DNA from: an uncultured Luminiphilus sp.
GTDB lineage: Bacteria; Pseudomonadota; Gammaproteobacteria; Pseudomonadales; Halieaceae
Length of the DNA: 64,000 nt
Direction: 5' to 3'
NCBI GenBank assembly: GCA_943787485.1
Contig: CALSMP010000009.1
Location: 1-64,000, forward strand
Shown here: positions 17,157-56,682 of the stretch, in pieces
How positions within the stretch are numbered: the stretch's first letter is position 1
How the letters are laid out: every line of letters starts with the position of its first letter
Notes under the pieces: model-generated
The model's input: only the letters and a program-made list of their open reading frames with translations
What the model was told of the DNA's origin: nothing
Databases searched by the model: none
Made by a program: the position numbers and the translations under genes

Positions 17157-18560
17157 GTGAACATGGCGGCGTTAAAAGACAGCGGCATTTTAGCGCCATC
17201 GGTGGAACCGCTCTGCTGGCTGTCCGTCACGGGATTATTGACTGCTTACCGCCGAGGCGAAACCGACCCCGTGGCGGTCACGTCGGCATTGTTGGCGCGA
17301 ATTGAACGGCTTAATCCGACGCTTTCTGCTTTCGAATCTGTATTCGCTGAGCCTGCGTTGGTTGCCGCCCGCGCCTCTGCAGAACGCTGGGCCCGAGTGG
17401 CTCAATCCGATGACTCTGGGGTTCGGCCATTGGAAGGCGTGCCTGTGGCCATCAAGGACTTGTTGACTACTGTCGAGGGCCCTACCAGCGCAGGCACTGA
17501 TTTTCTTGCAGGCTATCTTTCGAGGAAAGACGCAGCTGTGGTGCGTCGCTTACGTGACGCGGGTGCGATTATATTGGGTAAAACAGCGATGACTGAAGGG
17601 GCGTTCGCGCAGCACCACCCCGCGCGTATTACTCCCGTCAATCCTTGGGCTCCCGACCGAAGCCCCGGTGTTTCATCATCTGGATCAGCCGTGGCAGTAG
17701 CTGCAGGCTTGTGCCCCATCGCCTTGGGCACTGACACCGGCGGCTCCATACGCTTTCCCTGTGGCAACAACCGACTGGTGGGGCTTAAGCCAACGGTGGC
17801 TACTTTCGACGAGGGAGGCTGCTTCCCTTTGTCCTCAGGGCTGGATCATATCGGCCCGATCGTTCGCTCGGTGCAAGATCTTGAGGTGGCCATGCTGGCC
17901 ATGGGTTGGAATCCCAAGCCCGTAAGCGTGACCTCTGGACGAGTGGCGGTTGATCGAAAACAGCTGTCGCAACGCTGTGATCCGAAGATTCGCAGTTTGC
18001 TTGAGGTCAATCTGGAGGGGCTAGAGCGGCTGGGCTACCAACTTGTGGATTACGATCTTGAGGCTGTGCAATGGCCACTGGCGATGGGGTGGCTGGATAG
18101 GGTGGGTGTGTCAGCCCTGCGTGAGCACCAGAAATTTCATGTGCGTCACGCGAAACAGTATGGGCCGGCCTTTAGTTGGTTGTTAGAACATGGCGAGCGT
18201 GTTACGACAGACCGGTTGCGCGAGCTGGAGCATATGAGTGCCGCCTGGAGTAGAGAGCTTGATCACCTGCTCTCTGGTGTCGATGCCTTGGTTTGCCCCG
18301 TCTCGGCCTATCCCAACCCGCCCTTGGGTAACTCGGGTGCCCCTCCATCACCGGAGGCTATAGCCAACTCGGTGTATTACACCGCGCCTTTTAATTTCTC
18401 GGGCCATCCGGCGTTGACGCTACCCATGGGGTTTGTCGATGGTGCACCTTCTGGATTTCAACTGATTGGCCAGAGCCATAACGAGGCAGGTCTGATTGCG
18501 TTGGGGCAACGCATTCAAGAAGCCCAGCCGTGGTCTGATCATCCGACAGAATTTGAGTGA
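17157..18560 (+). CDS. Amidase (amidase-signature family)
   Basis: About 467 residues. The Ser-cisSer-Lys triad of the amidase-signature family is visible: Lys in GVPVAIKDLL, the Gly/Ser-rich block SSSGSAVAVAAG, and the nucleophile Ser in TDTGGSIRFPCG. It hydrolyses an amide to a carboxylate and ammonia (or an amine). The GTG at 17157 is four bases after the fusion-gene stop; an ATG two codons later is equally possible. Within this operon it could act on an amide intermediate beside the nitrilase. It is not a GatA homologue by context. Confidence 0.88.
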   Translation: MNMAALKDSGILAPSVEPLCWLSVTGLLTAYRRGETDPVAVTSALLARIERLNPTLSAFESVFAEPALVAARASAERWARVAQSDDSGVRPLEGVPVAIKDLLTTVEGPTSAGTDFLAGYLSRKDAAVVRRLRDAGAIILGKTAMTEGAFAQHHPARITPVNPWAPDRSPGVSSSGSAVAVAAGLCPIALGTDTGGSIRFPCGNNRLVGLKPTVATFDEGGCFPLSSGLDHIGPIVRSVQDLEVAMLAMGWNPKPVSVTSGRVAVDRKQLSQRCDPKIRSLLEVNLEGLERLGYQLVDYDLEAVQWPLAMGWLDRVGVSALREHQKFHVRHAKQYGPAFSWLLEHGERVTTDRLRELEHMSAAWSRELDHLLSGVDALVCPVSAYPNPPLGNSGAPPSPEAIANSVYYTAPFNFSGHPALTLPMGFVDGAPSGFQLIGQSHNEAGLIALGQRIQEAQPWSDHPTEFE

Positions 18561-18563
18561 GCT

Positions 18564-20195
18564 ATGAAAGAGATGCTGACAGCAGCGCAGAGCATTGTTG
18601 ATCGATTAATTGATCACGGGGTGGATACTATTTTTGGTATTCCTGGCGCCCAGACATATGCGTTTTTTGATGCCTTAGCGCAGCGCAAATCCGACGTGCG
18701 TTTGGTGATTGCCCGCCACGAGCAGGGTGCGGCGTACATGGCCTACGGTTATGCCAAATCCACCGGAAAACCTGGGGTGTATTGCGTGGTGCCGGGCCCT
18801 GGGGTACTCAATACTACTGCCGCACTCGTCACGGCCCACAACGCCCCCGTTTTGTGTATCACGGGTCAGGTACCTAGCGAATTTCTGGGGGTCGGACACG
18901 GCATGCTCCATGAGTTGCCCGATCAGCTAAATACCCTGCGCACCTTAACTAAATGGGCCTCTCGCATCAATTATCCGGACGAAGCGGCCCAGTTGGTAGA
19001 TGAAGCGTTTCGGAATATGTTGTACGGACGCGTTCAACCCGTCGCGCTCGAAATTCCGATGGATGTGTTGGCGCAAACTGGTATGCCGGTGACTCTTCCC
19101 ACGGTAGCGCCACAGCCGCCGCTGCAGCCTGATCCTACGCGCGTCAAACGTGCTGTGGAGCTGATTAAGACCGCGCAGAAGCCAATGATTTACGTTGGAA
19201 GCGGTGCGGTGGGCGCGGCGGCGGAGATCCTCGAACTGGCCCGCAAGATTCAGGCACCGGTGGCCTCGTTCAGGGGAGGCCGCGGCATCGTGGGTGATGA
19301 TACCCCTTACGGCTTCAACTGCGCCTCGGGGTACAAGTACTACCCGGATATCGATCTCATGATTGGCATTGGCACACGATTAGAGTTGCCGGCGTTTCGC
19401 TGGCAGGCAGGGGTGGCGAATCATAATATGATTCGGATCGACACTGACCCTACCCAGTCAGTTCGACTTCGTGGTGATGTGGCGCTGGTCGCCGACGCTC
19501 AGTGCGCGACTTCGGCAATTTTGAATGGCTTGGGCGATTATGCATCGCCGGAACTCCGCGAGTCGCAGTTTGTTGAGATAAAAGCCGAGTCTCATCGGGA
19601 AATCCAGAAAATCCAGCCGCAGATGACCTACCTCAATATCATGCGCGAGGTGCTGCCACGGGAGACTTTTGTTGTTGAAGAAATTAGCCAGTTTGGCTTT
19701 GCCTCGTACTATGGCTTTGAGCTGTATGAGCCTCGCAAGTTGGTGACCTGCGGTTATCAAGGCAACTTAGGTCACGGTTTTCAAACTTCGCTGGGTGTGC
19801 GGGTGGCCCAGCCTGACTGCCCGGTAGTATCGATTACTGGGGATGGTGGTTTTATGTTCGGTGTGGGAGAGCTAGCTACCGCGGTTCAGCATCGCATTGG
19901 TGTGATCGTACTGGTGTTCAACAACAACGCCTATGGCAACGTTCGCCGGGATCAAGTTAATTTTTATGATGGTCGAGTGCATGGCTCGGAGCTGGTAAAT
20001 CCCGATTTTGTGGCCCTTGCACAAAGTTTTGGTGCGAGGGGCTACCGGTCAGAGTCACCGGAGCATTTTCGAGACCTGCTGGCACGTGCTCTCACAGAAA
20101 CCGCTGACGGGCCGGTGCTAATAGAAGTGCCGATTGAACGGGGTTCGGAGGCATCGCCCTTTGAGTTTATGATGCCCAACAACTATGGGCGATAG
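18564..20195 (+). CDS. Thiamine-diphosphate enzyme, acetolactate-synthase-like
   Basis: A 543-residue ThDP-dependent enzyme with the three domains of the acetolactate synthase/benzoylformate decarboxylase family. The catalytic Glu lies in ARHEQGAAYMA (about residue 52) and the ThDP/Mg motif is GDGGFMFGVGELATA to VFNNNAYGNV. No regulatory subunit gene is next to it, and the setting is catabolic, so a 2-oxo-acid decarboxylase or carboligase is more likely than the biosynthetic enzyme. It starts just after the amidase stop and ends the plus-strand operon. The convergent neighbour begins 11 bases on. Confidence 0.87.
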   Translation: MKEMLTAAQSIVDRLIDHGVDTIFGIPGAQTYAFFDALAQRKSDVRLVIARHEQGAAYMAYGYAKSTGKPGVYCVVPGPGVLNTTAALVTAHNAPVLCITGQVPSEFLGVGHGMLHELPDQLNTLRTLTKWASRINYPDEAAQLVDEAFRNMLYGRVQPVALEIPMDVLAQTGMPVTLPTVAPQPPLQPDPTRVKRAVELIKTAQKPMIYVGSGAVGAAAEILELARKIQAPVASFRGGRGIVGDDTPYGFNCASGYKYYPDIDLMIGIGTRLELPAFRWQAGVANHNMIRIDTDPTQSVRLRGDVALVADAQCATSAILNGLGDYASPELRESQFVEIKAESHREIQKIQPQMTYLNIMREVLPRETFVVEEISQFGFASYYGFELYEPRKLVTCGYQGNLGHGFQTSLGVRVAQPDCPVVSITGDGGFMFGVGELATAVQHRIGVIVLVFNNNAYGNVRRDQVNFYDGRVHGSELVNPDFVALAQSFGARGYRSESPEHFRDLLARALTETADGPVLIEVPIERGSEASPFEFMMPNNYGR

Positions 20196-44310: not shown

Positions 44311-45606
44311 TTAGGTTTTGGCAAGGCCAAAGAAGAACACGTCGAAGTAATCGATAGCGGCAGCATCAATATCGTCAAGCTTGCGCCAGCTCCCGATGTC
44401 CATTGACGCATTAATAGCGCCTTGCAACATGTTTTGCGTGACATCGATATTGACTGCTCGCATGCTGCCTTCCTGCTGGCCTTGTTCGATGAAGCGATGA
44501 ATAAAGCTATTGGCCGTATCAGTGCGGGCCAGAATGCGCCGTCTGATGGGTGGCGGCAGAGCGGTAATGGTGTTGTACCGAATCAGTGGACCGAGGTCTG
44601 AATTTTGTATCCCGAAAATACGTCGGCAAGCCTCATCGAGTTTTTCGGCGGGCCCCATGTTCTTGGCCGTGATTTCCTCAGAAAGAGCCTCCAGCTGGTC
44701 CAGGGAAAAGTCATAGCACTGGGTTAGCAGCGATTCTTTGTTGGTGAAGTGATAGTAGAACGCTCCTTTGGACACCTGTAGATACTCGGCGATCTCATCG
44801 AGAGACGTACCGTTAAAGCCCTTCATGTTAAAAAATCGGGTACCGGCCTTGAAGAACGCCTCTTGTTTCAGTCGGTTTTGCGCCTCCCGATCAAATCCGC
44901 GTGCGCTAATGCCGGCCTCGCTTGGAAGAGCAGCTGTGCCTGGTACGTACTGATATGGCTTGGCTAGTAGTCCGTGGGTGACGATATCTTTGACGGCCTC
45001 GCTTGCTTGGGCTGCCGCCGTCTGAGGCATCTCGTATAACCAATAAAACGACCAGTCCAACGCGCCAATGAGTGCACGGGTGGTTGAGGTAGAGTGGCAT
45101 TCTCTAATGACCTTCTGCTCGATTCCGTCGCGAATGTAACCACGGACCCGCTTGAACATATCTAGATACTCGGGAATCAACGCGTCTCGATGCTTTTCTT
45201 TGAGGGAAGCGACTTCGAGGGGGGCCGCAAAGTAATCATCATCGCCGGCGAGCGCCCGTAATATGGTGTCGATGTGGGCCTGCATAAACAGGATGACCCG
45301 CTCTAGCGGATGATCGGTTGTAGCCTCAATGCGACTCAGGTTTTTGTGCGCGTGTTTGAGGGATGCGTCGTAACACTGGAAGATCAAGTCTTCCTTAGTT
45401 TTTACGTAATAATAGAGGCTGGTCTTGGTCAGCCCAAGCTTTTCGGCCACGTCGCTAAGGGTCGTTGAGCGTGCTCCCTTGGTATTAAACAGCTTGGCTG
45501 CGCGTGACAGAATGGCGCCGTGTTTGGCCTCATGCTGGATACCACGATTAAAAGGGGAGCCGCTGTCTGACGGGGGAGTCACGGTGCAATAATTCTCAAA
45601 ATTCAA
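44311..45606 (-). CDS. Double TetR-type regulator (two tandem TetR units)
   Basis: 431 residues, about twice the usual TetR length. Two helix-turn-helix domains are visible: one near residue 45 (LSDVAEKLGLTKTSLYYYVKTKEDL) and one near 255 (LDEIAEYLQVSKGAFYYHFTNKESLL), each followed by a helical ligand domain. It was probably formed by duplication or fusion, so one chain might act as a pseudo-dimer. The TTG start is weak; a GTG at 45582 is an alternative. It is divergent from an enoyl-CoA hydratase gene and precedes tesB, so it probably senses an acyl-CoA or fatty acid. Confidence 0.85.
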   Translation of the reverse strand: MNFENYCTVTPPSDSGSPFNRGIQHEAKHGAILSRAAKLFNTKGARSTTLSDVAEKLGLTKTSLYYYVKTKEDLIFQCYDASLKHAHKNLSRIEATTDHPLERVILFMQAHIDTILRALAGDDDYFAAPLEVASLKEKHRDALIPEYLDMFKRVRGYIRDGIEQKVIRECHSTSTTRALIGALDWSFYWLYEMPQTAAAQASEAVKDIVTHGLLAKPYQYVPGTAALPSEAGISARGFDREAQNRLKQEAFFKAGTRFFNMKGFNGTSLDEIAEYLQVSKGAFYYHFTNKESLLTQCYDFSLDQLEALSEEITAKNMGPAEKLDEACRRIFGIQNSDLGPLIRYNTITALPPPIRRRILARTDTANSFIHRFIEQGQQEGSMRAVNIDVTQNMLQGAINASMDIGSWRKLDDIDAAAIDYFDVFFFGLAKT

Positions 45607-45615: not shown

Positions 45616-45714
45616 CTTTAAGTATTTTTTTTGTCCGTGTCCATGAGGTTCGGAATTACGCCCAAAATTTCAATGTGTGCGACACTTCGGCAGACCCAAA
45701 AGGAATCGAATGAC

Positions 45715-46467
45715 ATGAGCGCTACCATCCTGTTTGAGCAGCATCAAGGCGTTGCGAGGATCAGCTTCAACCGCGCCGACAAGCACAACGCGCTGGGTCA
45801 TCAGGAGCTGGCCGGCATTGAGGCCGCGCTCGATTCCCTAGATGAAACCGCGCGGGTTGTCATATTGGCCTCGCAGAGCGGGCGGACCTTTTGTGCTGGC
45901 GCTGATTTACAGCAGATCAATAATGGCGAGCTGAGTGGTGAGCGATTCCAGGCGATGACTAATCGGATCGCCGCGCTGCCGATCCCAACCCTGTGCGTTA
46001 TCAATGGCAATATTTTTGGGGGCGGCGTGGAGCTGGCCGTGTCCTGCGATTTTCGTGTAGCGGCCGATGACGTCATGATGCGAGTGCCGGCCGCCGCGAT
46101 TGGGTTGTGCTATCCGATTGATGGTATTGAGCGCTTGGTCAAACGCCTCGGTGTGGCCCTCGCTAAACGCATTCTGGTAGCTGCCGAGGAGTTCTCTGCG
46201 GCTGACATGAAATCCCTAGGTATTCTCGCTTGGACGGCACCAGCCTCAGAGTTGATGCTGTCTGCCAGCCAGTTTGCCGAGCAGCTCGCTTCCCAGGCTC
46301 CGCTAGCAGTGCGGGCCATGTTGCAAGTTATCGATCAAGTGGAACAAGGTCAGCTGGACCGGTCCGAGGCGGATCGCCTGGTGGCTTTATGTGCCGGTTC
46401 GGCGGATTTGAAGGAAGGCCTGTTGGCGCAGCGTGAGCGCCGAGCGCCGCACTTTACGGGCGAGTGA
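45715..46467 (+). CDS. Enoyl-CoA hydratase/isomerase
   Basis: 250 residues from the ATG at 45715, chosen because AAGGA lies nine bases upstream; a longer in-frame start at 45631 would put non-crotonase residues first. Crotonase landmarks are FCAGADLQQINNG (oxyanion hole 1) and GGGVELAVSCDFRVAADD (oxyanion hole 2). The residues at the two classical catalytic Glu positions are not both clear from reading. It is divergent from the double TetR regulator. Confidence 0.87.
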   Translation: MSATILFEQHQGVARISFNRADKHNALGHQELAGIEAALDSLDETARVVILASQSGRTFCAGADLQQINNGELSGERFQAMTNRIAALPIPTLCVINGNIFGGGVELAVSCDFRVAADDVMMRVPAAAIGLCYPIDGIERLVKRLGVALAKRILVAAEEFSAADMKSLGILAWTAPASELMLSASQFAEQLASQAPLAVRAMLQVIDQVEQGQLDRSEADRLVALCAGSADLKEGLLAQRERRAPHFTGE

Positions 46468-46515: not shown

Positions 46516-49500
46516 TTAGATTGTGGGTAAGGCGTTAATGACCTGGTCGAGCATTTCCGTGATTGAGTCGTAATCAGCCTGTGAGAGCGTGCTGCTACCG
46601 GCCTTGGCTGCCTGCTCAATGTTACCCAGTAGGTTGGATAGCTGCTCGGCGCCGATGTTAGAGGTCATACTTTTGAGAGCGTGAGCGGCTTGACGCAGGG
46701 CCGGATAGTCTTCTCTGCCAATCAGTGCTTTGAGCTGCTCGGTATGTTCGGGTAGCTGGGTCAAAAAGGCGGTAACGACCTGCTGGATTAGCACATCGCC
46801 TTTTGCTGGATTAATCGCTCTGATGTTGTCGAGCGCTTTGACATTTAGAACCGCCAAGCTTTCGTCGACACTCGCAGCAGGCTGGTGGGGAACGTCCTGA
46901 CTCGAAGAGTCAGATTTTTGTACTTGCTGCCGCGCTTGCAAAAGGGCAGCGATACGCGTCGTTAATTCGTCGATTTCAAACGGTTTGGTCATGAACTCAT
47001 CCATACCGCAGTCAATCGCCCGACGAAACTCCTGCTCTCTCGCGGCAGCAGTGAGCGCCATGATGGGGGTCCGGTCTCGTCCTTGAGCAGCCTCAAGCTC
47101 CCGAATCTGGATCGTGGCGTCGAAGCCATCCATCACCGGCATTTGACAGTCCATCAGCACGAGGTCAATCGCCTGTTCACGAAAAAGATCAACGGCTTCT
47201 TTACCATTCTCGGCAATAACAGGCGTAAGCCCCATGCTATTTATCGCCTCGGTGACCAAGATTTGATTGACCTTGTTGTCTTCAGCTACCAGAACCAAGC
47301 CGGTCTCCGGGGTAAAGGTTGTGCTTACCTTTACACTGACGGGGAGGTGAGAGCAGGCTTCCAGCAGGTTGGTCAGCGTAACCGGCCGGTGCAAACCGAC
47401 CCAGGGCCCGCTGCCAAGCCGTGGCGACAAACTTCGGATGGAGGTGGCTAGCACCAGAGGCGTGGATGTCAGGGTCTCTTCGAAATAATCTAGGTCAGCC
47501 CGGTCTAATAATTCATCAGCAATCACTGCCGCGAAGGAGCGGTGGATTGCTTCATCCGCCTGCGCCAGCCTGACGACACGGTAGCCCACGATATCAGCGT
47601 GCGCGTTCACGCTCTCCATCAGCACGTCATCGGCAGTCAAGAGCGCCAGTTCGCCACGGGTAGAGGTCGACCGAGACTCCAACTCGTCCAAAGGCAATGT
47701 GACCGACACACGGGTTCCTTGGCCTGACTCGCCATCCGAGATCTTTAAGTCGCCACCCATTAACCGGGCAAAATTACGGCAAATGGTGAGGCCTAAGCCC
47801 GTCCCGCCGTACTGTCGGGTGGTGCTGGCATCGACCTGCGTGAATTTTTCAAAAACACGCTCTTTGGCTTCCGCTGGAATGCCAACACCCGTGTCGTCTA
47901 CGGAGAAGGTGAGTTGGTTATCGCTGGATTTGCCCACCCGCACGATAATACGACCGGCTTCTGTGAACTTAATCGCGTTGCCAATAAGATTCGTAACAAT
48001 CTGGCGTATTTTTTGGGAATCACCCAGATAGCTATTGGCCAACGCGCTACTTGGAATGAAGTCGAGTTTGAGACCTTTTCGCTGTGCGGGCTCACCCTGC
48101 AGATAGCATACTTCGTCCACCATCCCGACAAGATCGAACTCAGCGTGTTCGATCTCTACGCGATCGGCTTCGATTTTCGCAAGGTCGAGGACCTCGTTAA
48201 TTAAATGCAGGAGCGTTTTGCCGCTGTTTAGCGCCGCACGTGCAAACCGCTTTTGTTGTGGTGTGATATCGGTTTTGAGCAAAAGCTCATTCATGCCAAT
48301 CATGCCATGCAACGGCGTCCGAATTTCGTGACTCATGACCGCTAGAAACTCAGATTTTGCTAGGTTAGCCGCCTCAGCATCCTGTGTCGCTAGCTCCAAT
48401 TCGCTGGTGCGCTCTCGCACCCGAAGGGCCAGCTCTTGTTCTCTCAGCAGAGCTTGCTTGAGATTGCGCTGGTAAAAAAGAACGATCAACCCAATAACCA
48501 GAACAGCCAGAGCGATGTAGCCAGCATAAGCAGCCGGTGAGTTCCACCACGGCGGGTGTACCACGACGGGCATGCGCAGACCCTCATAGTTCCAGCCACT
48601 CAAAACACCTTTGGCGGCGACTTCCAAGACGTAATCACCCGCGGGCAGCGTTGTGAGGCTGACGGTGCGCTCATTACCTCGGTATATCCACTCGTCGCCG
48701 AGCCCCCTGATACGATATTGATACTCTATTTCTTCAGGAGCGACATACTCGGCGCCAAAGAATTCGACAGTAGCAATTTTGTCCTCGTAGTTGAGATCGA
48801 GCACATAGTTCTGCAGATCCTGAGGAAAGGGAAGAAAGGAATCCATGACCTTGATGGCGGAGAGGCCGATTTGGATTGGTGGTGAAAATAAATCTATAGG
48901 CCGGTCTGCGATCACTGACACACCTCGAAAGCCGCCAAAGAAAATTGTTCCGGCATTGCTTCGGGCTGAAGATCCTACAATAAACTCGCTGTTGTTTGCG
49001 CCAAATTTGTTTGTGAAGTGTTTTGCCTGCGAAAGATTGAAATCAATTTGCGACAAGCCTTCGTTATGAGATATCCAGTAGAAGCCACTGGCGCTCCTGT
49101 GAATCCCCATTATTGAACGACTAGGAATCTGATATGCAGCAGTTATATTGCTAACGTTGATTATTTCTAAGTTCTGATCACGGATCGCTTCGAATAAGCC
49201 GGATTGATAGGTTCCAACAAGAAGCGAATTGCTGTCGCCGGAGCTAATTTCTATTGGGTTTAAAGAGACTTCTGGATCGCTGCGAATCGTTGCGAAGTGC
49301 GTAAACCCTGTGTCAACAAGATTAGAAAAATCCTGGCTGAGTTTTGCTACTCCTGATTCGTTGGCTATCAGATAGCCACCATCAGCGTCTTCATGAAGAG
49401 CAAATATCTTGTCGCTAATACCGCTATTTTGTATCGCCCTGAATGTTCTGATTACGTCCCCAGCTGGATTGATAATCGATAAACCCCCGCCAAAGGTGCC

Positions 49501-50874
49501 GACAATCAAATGCCGACTCTGGGTAAGTAGCAGTGATGTAATTGCATCACTGTGCAAACCATCTTGAGAGCTGCTATCTGACTTCACTTTTTCTAATTCG
49601 TTACTAAAAATTTCGAGCTTATAAAGCCCTCCTTCAAACGTACCTATCCATGCGATGTCGTTGGTAGCGGTCACAGCCATTGCGACCGGGTCTTTCAAGC
49701 CCGGGTGAGTAAACTGGTTGACGTGTTGAAATTTTGATTCGCCAGCTCTTCTGTATGAAACGCCTTGATCAGTGGCTAGCCACAACGTACCGTCGTCGGA
49801 AATATGAATGCCGTTAACTGTGTCACTATTGAGATTGGTATTGGCCTGGCTGATTGTATAGCCAACACTTTTTCTGGCTTGAGCAAGCCCTTGCAAAGTA
49901 CCTATCCAATAGGTGCCATCGCTACTCTTATCGATACTGTAAATTGGAACATCCTGCAGGCCGCTGTTGAAGTCTGCGTATGTCTGGAAAGATCGTCCGC
50001 CGTCATTGGTTACGGCTAGGCCTTTTCCTGTTCCAACCCATGTGTAATCTGAATCATGGAAGATCTGGGATATGTTATTCGAGGGCAGGTCGCCCGCATT
50101 GGGTCCAGACGTGATTTGTCTGACTGATTGATCATGACGGTCGACTACAAAAATCCCTGCATTTAAAGTCGCAATCCAAATCTCAGTCTCTGTCGCAGAC
50201 ATCGAGTAAACATCAGCATTTGCAGTTTCTGGCAGCGTGAATACGTTCTCTAAGAGAGCATTAGAGTTAGAGGCGTCCAGCCTATATAACCCCCGGCCGG
50301 AAATTAAAATGAGAGTGCTCTCCTCGTAAGCGAGGATGTCAACCACTCTCGCCCCAGAGGGAAATAGATCTTTTTGAAATCGAGTTTCCCTGAACTCTCC
50401 TGTTTCGTGGTTATAAATAGATATTCCATCATTTAGACCAACGTAAAGCCTTCCTTCAATGTCGATATCGAATGATTGGGGAGATATTTTTCGGCTCAAA
50501 AAAGGCTCGGGAGTTGAGAACGTTTTTCGCTCCCTGTCGAAGATTTGTATTGAGGTGCTGGTAGCAACCCAAATTTCTCCGCTCTTGCCCTGCTTTACCC
50601 CCAACAATGAACCGGTTGCTAGGCTTTCGGGTACACCTAAGTTCGGCAGATATTTTTCTACTCTTTTGCCGTCATAGACATTTAAGCCCTCTTGTGTGGA
50701 GAACCACATCATCCCGGTTTTATCCTGGAAGGACTCGGTTACCACAATTTGGGATAGCCTAGTGCCTACAGGTGAGGGCCAAAAGGTAAGATTGGGGCCG
50801 ATATCTGCAGACCCCAATGCAGGAATTAGGAGCACTAAGAATGCCAAACCTGACGCAATTAGAGACTGTCTCAT
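46516..50874 (-). CDS. Hybrid histidine kinase with propeller sensor, receiver and Hpt
   Basis: 1452 residues. The signal peptide is followed by a periplasmic two-propeller sensor with many Reg_prop repeats of the kind [17 protein letters not shown] and [12 protein letters not shown] (about residues 30-650), then a Y_Y_Y domain ([15 protein letters not shown], about 715). A membrane helix lies at about 778-798. HisKA follows, with phosphoacceptor His in MSHEIRTP (about 847), then the ATPase domain ([30 protein letters not shown]). A degenerate receiver-like stretch (about 1080-1180) has no clear Asp, then a true receiver follows (VAEDN, Asp in [13 protein letters not shown] about 1241), and an Hpt domain with His in AHALKSM (about 1395). 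This is the Bacteroidetes-like architecture of polysaccharide-sensing kinases; the ligand is unknown. No DNA-binding output is present. Confidence 0.92.
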
Positions 50875-50937: not shown

Positions 50938-50961
50938 AAAAGACCCTTTTGAGGGTCTTTT
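50938..50961 (-). terminator. Rho-independent terminator of the small repeat-protein gene
   Basis: Read on the minus strand, the stem AAAAGACCC / GGGTCTTTT with a six-base loop is followed by T residues (eight in a row). It sits 45 bases after the stop of the repeat-protein gene and upstream of the kinase start, so the kinase needs its own promoter. Confidence 0.82.
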
Positions 50962-51005: not shown

Positions 51006-51447
51006 TTATCGGATTATCCATCTTGACGCAGCTTGATTTGCGTCGCTTCTGATAATCCACCTTGATGCAGCCTGATTAACATCGCTACGTATAATCCATC
51101 TCGAAGCAGCTTGACCTACATCGCTGCGAATCATCCAGCGCGTAGCCTGTCTGCCCAGCATCTGCACCGACCTCAATCGCAGCCGTGCGGCTGTTTGCCT
51201 CAGATGCAGGGTGGCTGGCCCAGCGAAAGCCGGATTGTCGTCTAGCATCCGTGCTGTTGACTACCGGCCCGGTCGGGGCGTTTTTGCTGTTCCACTTGAA
51301 GTTGTTGTAGTCGTTTTGCTCTTGAATCGCGCCAGCTACGTTGCTCACGGCAGACATGGCACCGCGTAGCTGCCCATCGGCTGAAACGGGGGCCGCTACC
51401 AGCGCCAAAGAAATTGCTAAACCAGAGATAACCGTATTCATTTTCAT
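51006..51447 (-). CDS. Small secreted protein with 13-residue tandem repeats (one extra base)
   Basis: The ATG at 51447 has GGAAGG eight bases upstream. The first frame encodes a signal peptide (MKMNTVISGLAISLALVAAP, cleaved near VSADG), then a segment with NNFKWNSKNAPTG and SGFRWASHPASEANS. A neighbouring frame encodes RWMIRSDVGQAAS, RWIIRSDVNQAAS, RWIIRSDANQAAS, RWIIR, stop. The two frames join if one base near 51150 is extra; this gives one 146-residue protein and keeps the 13-residue spacing across the join (ADAGQQAT followed by RW). In the repeat frame nearly all differences between copies are synonymous, which supports translation there. No family is recognised. A surface or self-assembling role is possible but only suggested. 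Confidence 0.62.
51013..51168 (-). repeat. 39-bp tandem repeat, four copies, coding
   Basis: Copies begin at 51013, 51052, 51091 and 51130 (plus-strand left ends), exactly 39 bp apart; the fourth is more divergent. Read on the minus strand each copy encodes 13 residues close to RWIIRSDVNQAAS. Between the three well-conserved copies the codon differences are almost all at third positions, apart from Val/Ala and Asn/Gly changes at two adjacent sites. Confidence 0.85.
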
Positions 51448-51571
51448 TGTATGCACCTTCCTATCATTCCAAGTTTATGGGCCGCTCCATGCGGCACGAA
51501 TCTGAAAGCGTGCATCCGTGACGCTGTGAGATCATCCTAGGGGGAACGTCAGAAGGACTACATCGGCCACC

Positions 51572-51588
51572 CTACCCACATGGGGTAG
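51572..51588. promoter_or_regulatory. Inverted repeat upstream of the repeat-protein gene, candidate operator
   Basis: CTACCC-ACATG-GGGTAG is a perfect inverted repeat with 6-bp arms and a 5-bp spacer, about 125 bases upstream of the repeat-protein ATG in a 181-bp gene-free stretch. No binding protein is named; a dimeric regulator such as a LuxR-type response regulator would suit the symmetry. Confidence 0.35.
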
Positions 51589-51628: not shown

Positions 51629-53572
51629 TTATTGCGCGTTTTCTGGGCTGAGCGCCCGAATTTTCTGGGCTTCTGCCTCGTAAACTGCCGCCCAATCGAA
51701 GGGCACTCCGTCGGCCTGGGGGCTATCTTTTGCCGGATCCAGTCGCTCTAAATGTGCTTTCACCCCCCAGCGTCGGTCTTCACTAAAACCCGAGGCGGCC
51801 TCCAAGGGCGAGAGCATACTGCTTAGATTTGGCAACATCGGGTCACCGGCAACATTGCGAATAGCCGGGCCCTCCAGCTGCTCCTCCCCCCTGGCGGCGG
51901 CGCGGATATCTTGTCCCACCCCATCGCATTGCGTTTCCCCCAGCGTGAGTGCTCGCGCCGCATTCACGCTGCCGGCTCCCTGTAGAAAAGGGCTATAGGC
52001 GAGTCGGCCATCACGGGCGATAGCGGGCTCCGCGCTAGTAAGCATTAAACACTTTATCTCGTCGTTGCTGAGGTCCGGTTTTGCGCTTAGCAGTAAAGCA
52101 GCAATCCCGGAGACAACGGCGGCGCTTTGCGAGCTGCCCGTGGACACGAACTCTCCTCCGGCCAGCAGGTAGTTTGGATTTTCTCTCGCCAAGGTCGAAT
52201 CAGGGGGGATCAACCCCGTCATGTGGCCACCCGGTGCCAACAAGTCGGGCTTGATGTGGCCCATGGGGGTTGGCCCTCTGGAGGAAAAATTTGGGATGTA
52301 GTCATCGCGGCGATCCTCCGGTGTCCAGCTGTCCGTGAGCGCACCTACGGTAATGACGTAGGGATTGTTTCCCGGAGAACCAATTGTTTGCCAGTCCGGG
52401 CCATCGTTGCCGGCGGCAACCACGACTGTGATACCCGCTTGCCAAGCTTTGAGGACGGCTTGATTCATCGGGTCATCCCAGTAAGCAAACCTCGGTGTGG
52501 CCGTCAGCGACAGATTGAGTACCCGAATATTCAGAGGTTTTGCGTGATCAATCACCCACTGAATGCCGCGGATAATATCGAGAAAATCACCGTCCCCCTG
52601 GGGTGTCACAGCGGTGACTGGAATTAGCTGCACGTCGGGTGCAATACCCTTGAACCCCGATCCCCCCACGCGCGTCACGGGCTCGCTGTTTGCGATAATG
52701 CTGGCCATGTGGGACCCATGTCCCCCTTTGTCCTCAAGCGGCCCTGGCTCATCTGGGTTGATGGCATTGTATTGCGCAGGCACACGCAAATTTCCGTCTG
52801 TTCCCCGAGTGAGGGCCGGGTGGTCCCACAGGCCTGAATCAATAATTGCGACACCGATACCCGCCCCGGTGATGCCCGAGCGGTGTAGAAGGTCAGCCCC
52901 TACATAGCGGGTGTAATAAAAGTCGCTGCCGTTGTGTTCGTATGCGGGTAACAGTGTGACGTCACACAGAGATGTCTTCACTACAAGGTCGATCTGGTTC
53001 TGAGTCGGTGAGTTCAGGGAGTTGTCAAACGCAAGCGTAAGGGTGGACAGGCCGGGTGGCAGCACAGCGTCGGTGATCAGTGACTCAGACGTCACAGCAG
53101 CTCCAAGGATCGCCGTCCCGCCCGAGGAAGCTGCGCTCCCAAGCGTGGCTCGCGCACGGCCCCAGTCCAGTGGCCAACTTCCAAGAAAACTATTGAGCGT
53201 TACCGTTGAGTCGGTGAAATTGTGTATCCGCCAGCTAAGGCTTTGCGTCGTAAAGGAGGCCTGAACGTCACCTGCGATGGCACATTCACGCTGTTCGGGA
53301 GGTTGTGTTGGATTGAAGTCCTCCACTAATCGCTGAACAGCGGTAGAGGCTCGCAAGGGTTCCAGCATGTCGGCGGCTATCTCGCCACCGATGCCGTTTA
53401 CCAGGGGGAGCGTGTGGGTCAGGCGGCCCTGCACGGACGACAGGGCTTCACGCAGGGCCTCAGCATCTTGGCCCTGCAGTAATACCTGAACCCTGCTTTC
53501 CTGCGCGTCACTGGTTGCAGCCGCCAGGAGTAGGGTGCTCCATAACAATGGGATTACGACGAACACTTTCAC
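51629..53572 (-). CDS. Secreted subtilisin-like serine peptidase (S8)
   Basis: 647 residues. A signal peptide (MKVFVVIPLLWSTLLLAAAT) is followed by a propeptide-like region with an N-terminal I9-type pattern (VQVLLQGQDAEALREALSSVQGRL). The S8 catalytic residues are intact: Asp in VAIIDSGLWDHP (about 244), His in KGGHGSHMASII (about 284) and Ser in STGSSQSAAVVSGIAA (about 481), where the usual GTS reads GSS. The oxyanion Asn lies in AAGNDGPDW. An additional C-terminal extension of about 100 residues lacks a recognised domain. It is exported and lies next to the small secreted repeat protein. Confidence 0.92.
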   Translation of the reverse strand: MKVFVVIPLLWSTLLLAAATSDAQESRVQVLLQGQDAEALREALSSVQGRLTHTLPLVNGIGGEIAADMLEPLRASTAVQRLVEDFNPTQPPEQRECAIAGDVQASFTTQSLSWRIHNFTDSTVTLNSFLGSWPLDWGRARATLGSAASSGGTAILGAAVTSESLITDAVLPPGLSTLTLAFDNSLNSPTQNQIDLVVKTSLCDVTLLPAYEHNGSDFYYTRYVGADLLHRSGITGAGIGVAIIDSGLWDHPALTRGTDGNLRVPAQYNAINPDEPGPLEDKGGHGSHMASIIANSEPVTRVGGSGFKGIAPDVQLIPVTAVTPQGDGDFLDIIRGIQWVIDHAKPLNIRVLNLSLTATPRFAYWDDPMNQAVLKAWQAGITVVVAAGNDGPDWQTIGSPGNNPYVITVGALTDSWTPEDRRDDYIPNFSSRGPTPMGHIKPDLLAPGGHMTGLIPPDSTLARENPNYLLAGGEFVSTGSSQSAAVVSGIAALLLSAKPDLSNDEIKCLMLTSAEPAIARDGRLAYSPFLQGAGSVNAARALTLGETQCDGVGQDIRAAARGEEQLEGPAIRNVAGDPMLPNLSSMLSPLEAASGFSEDRRWGVKAHLERLDPAKDSPQADGVPFDWAAVYEAEAQKIRALSPENAQ

Positions 53573-53577
53573 AGCAC

Positions 53578-55392
53578 CTAATTGGCGGTTGATGTCGCCG
53601 CAGTGGAAATATCGTAGCTCACTTCTTGCAGCGCCTTGAGTTCTTCAACCAATACCGGCTTTGAATACAGATAGCCCTGAAGGCTGTCGCAGGCGTTTTG
53701 AATCAACAACTGCGCCTGTTCCTGTGTTTCTACGCCCTCGGCAATTACCTTTATACCGAGCGCTTGCCCCAATCGAAGGATCGCCTTAACAATGCCATCG
53801 CCATGCTCGGTACCTGTTCGCGAAATAAACGCCCGATCAATCTTAAGCGTGTCGATTGGAAAATCCTGCAAGTAACTTAGGGATGAGTAGCCGGTACCAA
53901 AGTCATCAATGGCAAGTCGGAAGCCTTTGGATTTCAGAGCACTGAGCTTGGTAAGGCTGTCAGCCGCATCTGACATGACCACCCCCTCTGTTAACTCCAG
54001 TTCGATGGTCCGCTTGGCAGACAGCGTGCCCAGCATTTCGCCAAGCATCTCGACAAAATTAGATTGCGTAAATTGTAAGGGCGACAGGTTAATACCGATG
54101 GTCCAATTCAGCGGGAAAGCCGCTTCGTGTTGCGCGACATCCTGACTGATGCGCCGAACAATCCAGTTACCCAAAGCAATAATCTGCCCACTTCCCTCAG
54201 CAATATCGACAAACTTATCCGGCGGAATCATACCGAGATCTGGGTGTTGCCACCGGACCAGTGCCTCGACCCCTTCAATTTTGCCGGTGGACGCCTGTAT
54301 CTGCGGCTGATACATCATGAATAGTTGGTCCCCAGATATTAGGGCCGTGTTGAGGTCGTTTTCGAGCACTAGCCGCTCTTGAGTGTCGTCGGCCAGTGAC
54401 GTGTCATAGCGACGGAAATGGCATCGGCCGATTTTTTGCGACGCCCGAAGAGCCAGACCCGCTTCACGCACTAGCTCTTCACTCGTGGCGCTATCAGCAG
54501 CACGCGATGTGACACCAATATTCGGTGATAGCAGAAGCTGATAGTGGGTCAGCACTACTGGGTCATCGAGGATATCCAAGACAATTTGTGCCAGAGCATC
54601 CAGGCGTTGATCGTTCGCATTTCGAACGACTATGCTGAACTCGCTACCACCGGTGCGCATCAAGTCAATGGTTTCATCAGCTGGGGGACTGGTCTGCACA
54701 TTGGCATCAACGGCGAAAGAGGTGGGAGCCTCCTTCGCCAAACCGTCCTTCACGCCGCGCGCGATCGCATTAAGTATTTGATCGCCGGCATCATGTCCCA
54801 GTGAATCGTTAATACGCTTGAAATGATCAATGCTGAGCAGGAGCAAGCCTACTGTAGCCGTCTCCATCCTGTTTGGCCCGGTATTGCGTGACATATGTTC
54901 GAGGAAACTCGATCGGTTGGGAAGACCTGTGAGTTGGTCGTGATAAGCGAGATATTCCAGGTCAGCTTCCCTCGCTTGCAGGGCTGTGAAGTCGGCGGCG
55001 GAGCGCAACATGTAACGCACGTCTCGCGACAATAGCGACCAGTTTATGGGCTTTGTTTTGTACTGAGTTGCTCCCGATTGAAACCCCTCGTCAATCGAGT
55101 CGCGATCATCCGCACCAGTAGCAATAAGAATCGGCACGTTCTCGCCCTGAGGCAGCTGGCGAATCCTCGCACACACCTCAAAGCCATTCAGGTTGGGCAT
55201 TTCGATGTCTAGAAAGATCAGGTCTGGCAGGTCCCGTAGAAAAGATTCTACGGCTTGCAGACCATCGGCCGCCTCAGTCACTTTCATGCCGGCTTCTTCA
55301 AGGCATTCCTTCGCGAGCAGCCGCACCATGGGATCGTCGTCACAGACGAGGATAGTGGGCGGCTTTGATTCTGCTGACGTCACTGCAGACAT
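53578..55392 (-). CDS. Response regulator with GGDEF and EAL domains
   Basis: 604 residues. Receiver: VCDDDPMVRLLAKE and the phosphoacceptor Asp in DLIFLDIEMPN. Next comes a GGDEF domain in which the signature reads GGSEF (about residue 246), so cyclase activity is doubtful. Then an EAL domain (EGVEALVRWQHPDLG, DDFGTGYSSLSYL) keeps the core metal-binding residues, so c-di-GMP hydrolysis is the likely output, perhaps with GTP-binding control by the GGDEF domain. It is five bases downstream of nothing on its own strand; the subtilase gene follows it six bases after its stop, so the pair may be one operon. Confidence 0.9.
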   Translation of the reverse strand: MSAVTSAESKPPTILVCDDDPMVRLLAKECLEEAGMKVTEAADGLQAVESFLRDLPDLIFLDIEMPNLNGFEVCARIRQLPQGENVPILIATGADDRDSIDEGFQSGATQYKTKPINWSLLSRDVRYMLRSAADFTALQAREADLEYLAYHDQLTGLPNRSSFLEHMSRNTGPNRMETATVGLLLLSIDHFKRINDSLGHDAGDQILNAIARGVKDGLAKEAPTSFAVDANVQTSPPADETIDLMRTGGSEFSIVVRNANDQRLDALAQIVLDILDDPVVLTHYQLLLSPNIGVTSRAADSATSEELVREAGLALRASQKIGRCHFRRYDTSLADDTQERLVLENDLNTALISGDQLFMMYQPQIQASTGKIEGVEALVRWQHPDLGMIPPDKFVDIAEGSGQIIALGNWIVRRISQDVAQHEAAFPLNWTIGINLSPLQFTQSNFVEMLGEMLGTLSAKRTIELELTEGVVMSDAADSLTKLSALKSKGFRLAIDDFGTGYSSLSYLQDFPIDTLKIDRAFISRTGTEHGDGIVKAILRLGQALGIKVIAEGVETQEQAQLLIQNACDSLQGYLYSKPVLVEELKALQEVSYDISTAATSTAN

Positions 55393-55485
55393 GATCGTGT
55401 AAACCCGAGTCCTTGGGATAACCTTAGGTTAGCACCTTACTCTCCCTACAACACCCTAGTCTTATCACAATACCGGCGGTGGGTC

Positions 55486-55512
55486 TTGCAACTCGTCACT
55501 TTGTGCTAGTAT
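55486..55512 (+). promoter_or_regulatory. Candidate promoter of nadA
   Basis: TTGCAA (55486-55491) and TAGTAT (55507-55512) are 15 bp apart, and the -10 box is preceded by TGC, an extended -10. If used, transcription starts near 55520, downstream of the GTG at 55479, which supports the ATG at 55545 as the nadA start. Confidence 0.4.
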
Positions 55513-55544
55513 TTTCGGCCGTTTTCACTGCGGTCACGCCGGTC

Positions 55545-56621
55545 ATGTCTATCGCCGAAGACAAGCTAGTCAAAATTCGCGAACAGGTTACGCAGCACCT
55601 GAACACCGCGCAGAGCACGAGCCTGAGCGAGGCCGATCGCGCCCTTTTGGCAGCGCGTATTCGTGAAGCCTTGGTCCGCGAAAATGCCGTCATTGTCGCG
55701 CACTATTACACAGCACCGGAAATACAGGCCTTGGCAGAGGCCACCGGCGGCTGCGTTTCGGATTCCCTGGAGATGGCGCGATTCGGACGCGACCATCCAG
55801 CGGACACGCTGATTGTCGCGGGTGTTCGTTTCATGGGTGAGACCGCCAAAATATTGACGCCCCATAAACGCGTCCTGATGCCCGATCTTGAAGCAACCTG
55901 CTCGCTCGACCTCGGTTGTCCTGCTGAGGAGTTTTCTCAGTTCTGTGATGCCCACCCAGACCGGGAAGTCGTCGTGTACGCCAACACTTCTGCAGCGGTT
56001 AAGGCCCGCGCAGATTGGGTGGTGACCTCCAGTATTGCGCTTGATGTGGCAGAACATTTGGCAGATGAGGGCAAGAAGATTATCTGGGCGCCTGACCGAC
56101 ACCTGGGTGCCTACGTCCAGCGCGAGACCGGTGCTGATGTCTTGATGTGGGATGGTGCCTGTATCGTGCATGAGGAATTCAAGGCACGCGGTGTGGCAGA
56201 TTTAAAACGCGTCTACCCCGATGCGGCGGTGCTCGTGCACCCGGAGTCTCCCGCCTCGGTGATCGAGTTGGCAGATCGGGTGGGTTCCACCACGCAAATC
56301 ATTAATGCGGCCAAATCGATGGCCAACCAGCAGTTTATTGTTGCCACCGACCAGGGCATTTTTTACAAGTTGCAACAGGCGGCCCCCGACAAGCAGTTCA
56401 TCATTGCTCCTACCGCCGGTGAAGGGGCGACCTGCCGCAGTTGCGCGAATTGTCCGTGGATGGCAATGAATGATCTGCAACGGCTAGCGTCGGTCTTTGA
56501 ACGCTCGGAGGACAATGAAATTCACGTTGATCCTGGTCTCGGTGAGGCGGCCATGAAGCCTCTCGATCGCATGCTTAACTTTGCGGCGACGCTGAATAAC
56601 GGTGTTATTAGCGGTCGCTGA
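55545..56621 (+). CDS. nadA: Quinolinate synthase A
   Basis: 358 residues from the ATG at 55545, a normal length for the long NadA form (E. coli 347). NadA makes quinolinate from iminoaspartate and dihydroxyacetone phosphate with a [4Fe-4S] cluster. Visible landmarks are [29 protein letters not shown] and the Cys-containing blocks [16 protein letters not shown] and [21 protein letters not shown] at 55479 would add 22 hydrophobic residues but is upstream of the putative promoter. It is transcribed divergently from the GGDEF-EAL gene. Confidence 0.95.
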
Positions 56622-56634
56622 TCGACGTGCTGGA

Positions 56635-56682
56635 CTTAGCCTTTATCAAATTTAGCCTTTATCCGATTTAGCCCTTGTCCAG
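56635..56682 (-). repeat. 16-bp tandem repeat, three copies, covering the bepA 3' end
   Basis: The units at 56635, 56651 and 56667 (cttagcctttatcaaa, tttagcctttatccga, tttagcccttgtccag) are 16 bp long. On the minus strand each contains a TAA (56636, 56652, 56668), so bepA is followed by stop codons in all three frames, because 16 is not a multiple of three. Confidence 0.8.

Follow-up and report, generated by a model that had tools for sequence, protein, structure and literature searches.

A tryptophan-repeat array, a secreted subtilase and a propeller kinase in marine Halieaceae: what looks like a signalling or surface module

The locus described here resembles parts of several known systems. 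In fungi, kexin-processed repeat proteins and the yeast alpha-factor precursors likewise combine a signal peptide, tandem near-identical units, a subtilase and a dedicated downstream receptor. Curli (CsgA, with a repeat unit of about 22 residues) and other repeat amyloids are also secreted, have short predicted strands with a conserved glutamine and aromatic residues, and stand in a c-di-GMP context. The LapG/LapD circuit of adhesin release brings together a secreted protease, an extracellular protein and c-di-GMP, the same three kinds of component as here. Bacteroides hybrid two-component systems, which carry a C-terminal AraC DNA-binding output, share with the kinase at this locus a Reg_prop and Y_Y_Y sensor on a histidine kinase core. 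For most marine propeller sensor kinases and GGDEF-EAL enzymes, we know of no input. The Pseudomonas subtilase SprP, a secreted S8 protease described as having pleiotropic effects and an additional domain (PMC3937732), is comparable in kind to the subtilase considered below.

We analysed a stretch of 64,000 nucleotides (the window) from contig CALSMP010000009.1 of an uncultured Luminiphilus sp. (assembly GCA_943787485.1). The features around the repeat gene are as follows.

45631 to 46467, plus strand: enoyl-CoA hydratase (ECH) family gene, the conserved opposite flank of the module
46516 to 50874, minus strand: hybrid sensor kinase (Reg_prop propeller, Y_Y_Y, HisKA, HATPase, receiver, Hpt)
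50938 to 50961, matched on both strands: terminator-like hairpin between the repeat gene and the kinase gene
51006 to 51248, minus strand: open reading frame of the repeat frame, its C-terminal part made of 13-residue units (compare the one-frame homologues)
51010 to 51137, minus strand: 39-bp tandem array, three full units and a divergent first unit
51085 to 51456, minus strand: open reading frame of the signal-peptide frame, Met at 51447 (compare the alignment with relatives)
51572 to 51588, no strand: CTACCC-N5-GGGTAG, a palindromic operator-like site ahead of the repeat gene
51629 to 53572, minus strand: secreted subtilase (Peptidase_S8) whose C-terminal tail carries one RRWGVKAHLER motif
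53578 to 55392, minus strand: response regulator-GGDEF-EAL, GGDEF motif unrecognisable, EAL motifs kept
55479 to 56621, plus strand: nadA, a conserved flank of the module

The repeat gene in the window

TRF reported a 39-bp period at 51010-51137 (3.3 copies, score 130), and a second repeat search agreed (three 50-nt copies at a spacing of 39), so the tandem repeat described by the first-pass annotation is real. Its four copies are not equal, as there are three full units behind a divergent first unit (...QATRWMIR). The coding strand of the array is the minus strand, and the repeat frame ends in ...SDVGQAASRWIIR SDVNQAASRWIIR SDANQAASRWIIR-stop, the last unit closing as RWIIR-stop and the array ending exactly at a unit end. 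The unit length of 13 residues stood, but the phase read back from the stop, SDVNQAASRWIIR, is better than the RWIIRSDVNQAAS first given. Differences between the copies are mostly synonymous in this frame, as had been claimed: when the three full units are compared in pairs, 19 of 23 codon changes are synonymous, compared with only 1/21 and 0/19 in the other two minus-strand frames, and the base differences number 4, 4 and 19 at codon positions 1, 2 and 3.

The signal peptide (MKMNTVISGLAISLALVAAPVSA) was correctly placed out of frame with the array, in ORF 51456-51085 versus 51248-51006. Its frame reads MKMNTVISGLAISLALVAAPVSADGQLRGAMSAVSNVAGA..., includes an RGAMSAVSNVA segment and runs through two F[KR]W units before it is lost upstream of the array itself. 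There is no further stop inside either piece. Since relatives carry signal peptide, FRW-type units and array in a single frame, the two frames are best taken as pieces of one gene, again as first proposed. The window copy is broken or mis-sequenced, whether by a real recent mutation or an assembly error, and given the frame split the repeat protein may be non-functional in this strain. As a family trait, a programmed frameshift is unneeded (single frame in 19/19 intact relatives); the window strain itself may have one. A chance or non-coding repeat was rejected, as the unit differences of 19 genomes are concentrated at codon position 3 and whole ORFs exist.

Homologues and the conserved neighbourhood

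The initial homologue search covered 58 related genomes and genome contigs. The homologues share a layout within one open frame: a signal peptide (signal-like N-termini were judged by eye), the segment RGA[VIM]TA[VI]S[NH]VA, two FRW-type units and the array. One such contig match came from Marine gamma proteobacterium HTCC2080, which has been grouped with Luminiphilus in the NOR5-1B subclade of Halieaceae (PMC10100682); the assignment of the holders' family to Halieaceae follows from this grouping. A profile search of 57 genomes of the genus gave 10 matches, or 9 after G002 was dropped (E 7.5e-4, three stops, no array ORF), and the same search in 390 genomes of the order gave 17, or 16 after G351 was dropped (E 1.1e-5, two stops, no array). 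Two of these 16 belong to the genus and the remaining 14 to other genera of its family, giving 23 holders in total (9 of the genus and 14 others), all from HTCC2080's family, Halieaceae. Class-wide, at E <= 1e-6, the window's own genome was the sole match to the repeat profile among 369.

The array is intact, in one frame and on a single contig, in 19 of the 23 holders; the others are the window (frame break), G004 (two contigs), G060 (N) and G133 (contig edge). Homologues with a variable copy number of the 39-bp unit, for which the first-pass annotation had suggested searching, were thus found, with 4-13 units per intact array and the repeats coded in a single open frame in all 19. Within a genome, unit identity is 76-99%; between genomes it averages 51% (first unit of each array excluded). 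Third codon positions differ in 12-56% of unit comparisons and first plus second positions in 0-19%, an excess which indicates that the units were held alike as protein while silent sites drifted. Non-synonymous divergence between copies had been named as a finding that would speak against the coding reading; inside genomes the differences lie mostly at silent positions, whereas between genera the unit does differ. The main per-genome consensus is [NS]x[AS][DE]Q[AS][GA][YFS][KR]W[GIV][IL][RK], with Q5 and W10 in 19/19 genomes and an R or K closing the consensus of each. The stop falls exactly at a unit end in 18/19 intact arrays (G077 adds 6 residues), and the array tails of G004 and G060 do not stop at a unit end. 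The array of G008 (L048 2715-3572) has 13 units that alternate between NDAGQAAS and SDxNQAAS, a super-period of 26 residues. Assemblies break inside or beside the array (contig ends in G006, G009, G276, G405, G133 and G004), from which we expect this family to be under-reported in draft genomes.

Searches of Pfam, NCBIfam and PDB by sequence gave no convincing match to the repeat protein. A PDB match to lysostaphin (phmmer E 2e-6; profile 0.0034) was judged compositional; lysostaphin has short repeats of its own, which are unrelated. For the G008 protein, matches above the curated Pfam cut-off to RVT_3 (31.2 vs 21.6 bits) and SPP1_Dit (25.5 vs 25) were considered repeat artefacts, because no single stretch passes alone and the HTCC2080 protein matches neither, and its NCBIfam matches were all below cut-off. 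The original description of an unrecognised secreted repeat protein, with its protein sequence under selection, is supported by these results.

The neighbours named alongside it (subtilase, hybrid sensor kinase, c-di-GMP enzyme) were also correctly identified, and this neighbourhood is conserved in relatives as a module of response regulator-GGDEF-EAL, subtilase, repeat protein and propeller (Reg_prop/Y_Y_Y) hybrid kinase. Within the genus, subtilase, regulator and kinase flank the repeat gene wherever the contig extends, the kinase in 9/9 genomes. Across these loci nadA is 77-80% and the M48 peptidase 72-84% identical, compared with 40-68% for subtilase, kinase and regulator. In the other genera the subtilase adjoins the array in 14/14 loci, followed by the regulator in 14/14, and the kinase is present in 12 of the 13 evaluable loci. 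L127 is cut and was not evaluable for the kinase; its regulator is present (43% identity). L138, from G257, has subtilase and array, with a DUF3604 gene in the kinase's place. A further propeller-kinase-like gene and a further GGDEF-EAL-like gene are present in many of these loci, and an ApbE gene in some; the Pfam check of these additions covered L128. There an ApbE-family gene (18284-19216) closes the extended module, and ORFs of 308-318 aa lie at the ApbE position in L129, L132, L133, L134, L135, L137 and L140. In the window itself, one ORF at 44311-45606 has two stretches matching a TetR N-terminal domain, and a 16-bp tandem repeat (2.4 copies) lies at 56636-56673, between nadA and the M48 peptidase gene.

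The position of the module, near nadA and the ECH gene, is constant in loci reaching them. A mobile element or phage cassette was rejected: the search found no relative in viral contigs and one weak plasmid match (E 7e-4), whose neighbourhood holds no part of the module. A defence island was rejected as well. In PADLOC the subtilase fits a generic subtilase model (96.6 bits) and matches IetS models partially (24-40 bits), and the other four proteins scanned match nothing.

Array and subtilase occur together. An orthologous subtilase (at least 673 bits; four S8 matches at 229-252 bits were excluded as other subtilases) was found in 11 of the 57 genus genomes, 9 of which are all of the repeat-gene holders. 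In the remaining two, G006 and G009, the contig runs on for about 160 and 125 bases beyond the stop of the subtilase gene and then ends. Among the 390 genomes of the order, a subtilase at E <= 1e-100 was found in 18, namely the 16 repeat-gene holders and two genomes of family f40, G276 and G405. The N-terminus of the subtilase is signal-like, and its S8 catalytic motifs are conserved. The kinase has a hydrophobic segment at its N-terminus and another near residue 780, which predicts a propeller outside the cytoplasm. The GGDEF motif is kept in 8/10 sequences compared and, by pattern match, unrecognisable in the window; as the EAL motifs are intact, the window regulator may act only as a phosphodiesterase.

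The repeat gene had been credited with a terminator of its own and an inverted-repeat operator, and both have counterparts in our analysis, a hairpin at 50938-50961 (both strands) and the operator-like site at 51572-51588. The pattern ACCC-N2-6-GGGT lies between subtilase and repeat gene in 20/23 genomes, the window included (G297, G371 and G190 are without it), compared with a mean of 0.55 and a maximum of 3 in 200 shuffles. With one mismatch allowed, each of four genomes has two matches to TACCCCAWNTGGGTA. The exact sequence occurs once per genome in G000, G015 and G008, always at the repeat gene, and not in G077, where the operator-like site has one mismatch to it. A reversed-pattern control gave 2, 1, 1 and 6 in these four genomes, so the exact site alone is informative. 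A consensus scan found no sigma-70-type promoter.

Arrays fused to the subtilase, and structure prediction

The f40 subtilases, those of G276 and G405 among them, carry the tryptophan array within their own polypeptide, at the C-terminus. A search of this family found the subtilase in 16 of 81 genomes (E <= 1e-40), and a motif array is present on it in 12/12 genomes inspected (G808, G820, G830 and G861 were left out of this inspection). The motifs include GYIWNL with a six-residue spacer, GYIWNM, GFIWNL, GLLWTY, GTVWDY and GTYWQQ. Tryptophans are mostly 12 or 6 residues apart (13 in stretches of two arrays), and W-V-x-x-E closes 8/8 f40 proteins reaching a stop. All seven loci extending past the gene have a propeller-sensor match nearby, which is the next gene in most (divergent in L191, further along in L192), and six of the seven have a GGDEF-EAL-type match. 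Pfam identified Reg_prop, Y_Y_Y, PAS and HisKA_2 in the L187 and L189 sensors, and REC-PAS-GGDEF-EAL in L187. As the array is fused to the protease in f40, the link between the two is stronger than adjacency. A similar motif, W-G-[VI], is present singly in the C-terminal tail of 22/22 aligned Halieaceae subtilases, and we infer that it may be a remnant of the array.

The subtilases of L167, L173, L185, L187, L188 and L190 carry large tryptophan-motif arrays, GYIWNL-like at the C-terminus (up to 34 tryptophans) and LARYLWDEE-like at the N-terminus. Next to the fused subtilase, most of the loci L162 and L185-L192 encode a response regulator of about 970 aa with a sigma-54 activator domain (checked by Pfam in L187). 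This sigma-54-type regulator may control the fused subtilase.

Beyond the order, 3 of the 369 class genomes, besides our own, gave subtilase matches. A subtilase with five DAYLWF units lies beside a Reg_prop-Y_Y_Y-GGDEF protein in L205, and one with three GDPWGGGY units beside a divergent Reg_prop-Y_Y_Y-GGDEF-EAL protein in L207. L206 (G458) has nine GYLWNN units; the 14 kb read there contain no sensor, and on the other side the contig ends. Across Halieaceae, f40, L205 and L207, protease, tryptophan array, propeller sensor and c-di-GMP enzyme are thus repeatedly found as partners, in several gene arrangements and with a motif spacing of 13, 12 or 6 residues across genomes.

The first-pass annotation suggested that the repeats could form a stacked or fibril-like structure, which the predictions do not support. 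An AlphaFold model of the single HTCC2080 sequence (mean pLDDT 50.8) is disordered except for the array (about 62-75). The array alone was modelled with one short strand per unit (pLDDT 71.7, pTM 0.65), although a single-sequence prediction of a near-perfect repeat may invent solenoids. Foldseek found no match at E <= 0.001; the weak matches include several beta-solenoids, with the CsgA fibril at rank 4 (E 2.9). The constant spacing of the motifs (13 in Halieaceae, mostly 12 or 6 in f40) suggests something other than free linkers, yet a single fixed solenoid is hard to reconcile with periods that change between families. The wider claim of a small uncharacterised surface or matrix system stands in part, as a conserved module with its own operator-like site, and not as to a fibril.

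Interpretation and comparison with known systems

We propose that the array is a former subtilase tail, now split off and acting as the partner of that protease, and that the pair would form the extracellular input of a propeller-kinase c-di-GMP pathway, a proposal that we consider about equally likely to hold or to fail. The repeat gene would be the C-terminal tail of an f40-type protease, here a separate gene, and secreted subtilase and secreted array together would make up the extracellular input arm. The propeller (Reg_prop/Y_Y_Y) kinase would read the state of the array (present, bound or protease-cut) and hand phosphate to the response regulator-GGDEF-EAL, upon which c-di-GMP would change. 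Gene family, array, secretion signals, domain content, co-occurrence, fusion, operator-like site and recurrent c-di-GMP partner were read directly from the sequences. This proposal draws on the presence of the subtilase in all 9 genus holders and all 16 in the order, on the fusion in G276, G405 and the 12/12 inspected f40 genomes, on the adjacency of kinase and regulator, on the fusions of the propeller sensor with GGDEF (L205) or GGDEF-EAL (L207), and on the exact operator pattern, found once, at the repeat gene, in 3/4 genomes. The signal-like subtilase N-terminus, the outward propeller and the modest array models are likewise consistent with a signalling module that has a protease-array extracellular arm, within which the array may be a tether, a polymer or a source of peptides. 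From these data we infer contact between array and protease, reading of both by the sensor, the direction of the split and the sign of the output. Several observations run against the proposal: G257 (L138) has subtilase and array with the kinase missing beside them, and the sensor is missing in the stretch read in L206. The co-divergence of unit and sensor (0 of 2000 permutations; partial r 0.66) is no stronger than that of the control, unit versus response regulator (0.70), and we did not use it as evidence, as the control is as strong and the samples inside each clade are tiny (6 and 7 genomes). A merely co-regulated matrix operon would also be expected to show genetic linkage.

Other explanations share much of this evidence. 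The array could be a multi-copy peptide precursor that the subtilase, or another protease, would cut into near-identical 13-residue peptides, serving as a genus-specific signal for the propeller kinase. With the consensus ending in R or K and 18/19 arrays stopping there, cleavage would leave a last unit no different from the others; the units are alike inside a genome and divergent between genomes, a secreted protease and a sensor kinase adjoin the array, and fungal alpha-pheromone precursors are described as having 1 to 16 peptides of 9-24 residues (PMC6339444). However, 18/19 consensuses have a single R or K between units in place of a dibasic KR, RR or KK (G257 has RR), the fused f40 arrays are without the basic residue and end in W-V-x-x-E, the constant spacing suggests structure instead of linkers to be cut up, and the subtilase is without a kexin-type P domain (Peptidase_S8 alone was found by Pfam in the window and HTCC2080 subtilases). 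We regard such a precursor as unlikely, if well short of negligible. If the array were instead a structural surface or matrix protein (adhesive, sticker-and-spacer or an amyloid-like beta-stack), the sensor and c-di-GMP enzyme would regulate its expression only. Each unit consensus has an amphipathic, strand-like core with the invariant tryptophan at its centre; this core, the AlphaFold model of the array, the beta-solenoids and CsgA fibril among the non-significant matches and the c-di-GMP enzyme at the locus all fit such a role, but the solenoid may be a product of single-sequence prediction, there is no match to Curlin or another amyloid family, no secretion genes were recognised beside the array, and a matrix role alone leaves the f40 fusion unexplained; we find this reading distinctly unlikely.

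The fusion, the strict co-occurrence of array and subtilase and the similar single motif in all 22 subtilase tails would be expected if the array served the protease only, as its anchor, chaperone or inhibitor, outside any signalling. That role needs neither propeller sensor nor c-di-GMP enzyme, yet both recur by the protease in two families, and sensor and c-di-GMP domains are fused together in two genomes beyond the order, so we hold it to be highly improbable. That the gene in the window genome is merely a decaying pseudogene, as its two frames in the assembly and the unrecognisable GGDEF motif of the adjacent enzyme might suggest, is almost certainly wrong: the third-position bias persists in the units after the break, neither piece has another stop, the operator-like site is intact, and the pattern fits a very recent break or an assembly error.

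The proposal of an extracellular input has a bolder form, possible but put forward only tentatively, in which this would be a new bacterial input device: the secreted tryptophan array, borne on its own subtilase or paired with it, would act as a multi-copy ligand or tripwire, its cut or folded state being read by a propeller sensor that controls c-di-GMP (in some genomes as a single polypeptide), and the genus-divergent motif would make the signalling kin-specific. In any case, the locus looks like an undescribed signalling or surface module in a marine bacterium and its relatives. In two families it offers a candidate input encoded beside its sensor, as it does, next to a fused sensor, in two genomes from other parts of the class; it permits a direct test of whether a secreted, protease-linked repeat array switches c-di-GMP; and it points to a repeat protein family outside the convincing reach of Pfam, NCBIfam and PDB. 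Searches of the open literature showed no description of a tryptophan array in such a module. As far as these searches show, the parts are of known kinds and their combination with the tryptophan array is undescribed.

Each of the known systems differs from the module in its own way. The Bacteroides hybrid systems differ in output: the window kinase has receiver and Hpt domains instead of an AraC output domain, with a separate GGDEF-EAL regulator, and no polysaccharide genes were found among the immediate neighbours checked. For SprP, compared by description only, the available text mentions no tryptophan array or propeller sensor (PMC3937732). The anti-phage S8 systems (IetS) are set apart by both profile and partner gene. 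The Curlin repeat profile had no Pfam match in the two window pieces or the HTCC2080 and G008 proteins, and no CsgG-type or csgEFG-type genes are among the neighbours (RR-GGDEF-EAL, subtilase, kinase, nadA, ECH); the array also differs from curli in its unit of 13 residues and in having a protease as its partner. In contrast to the LapG/LapD circuit, the protease of the module is an S8 enzyme and not a LapG-type cysteine protease, its array is short and repetitive, and no LapD-type receptor was found among the module genes checked. With the kexin-processed repeat proteins the array shares a signal-like segment and at least three near-identical units (4-13 in all 19 intact arrays). They differ from the module in that cleavage is hypothetical here, and the module is bacterial, with an array that in f40 is fused to its protease and a putative receptor that is a propeller histidine kinase.
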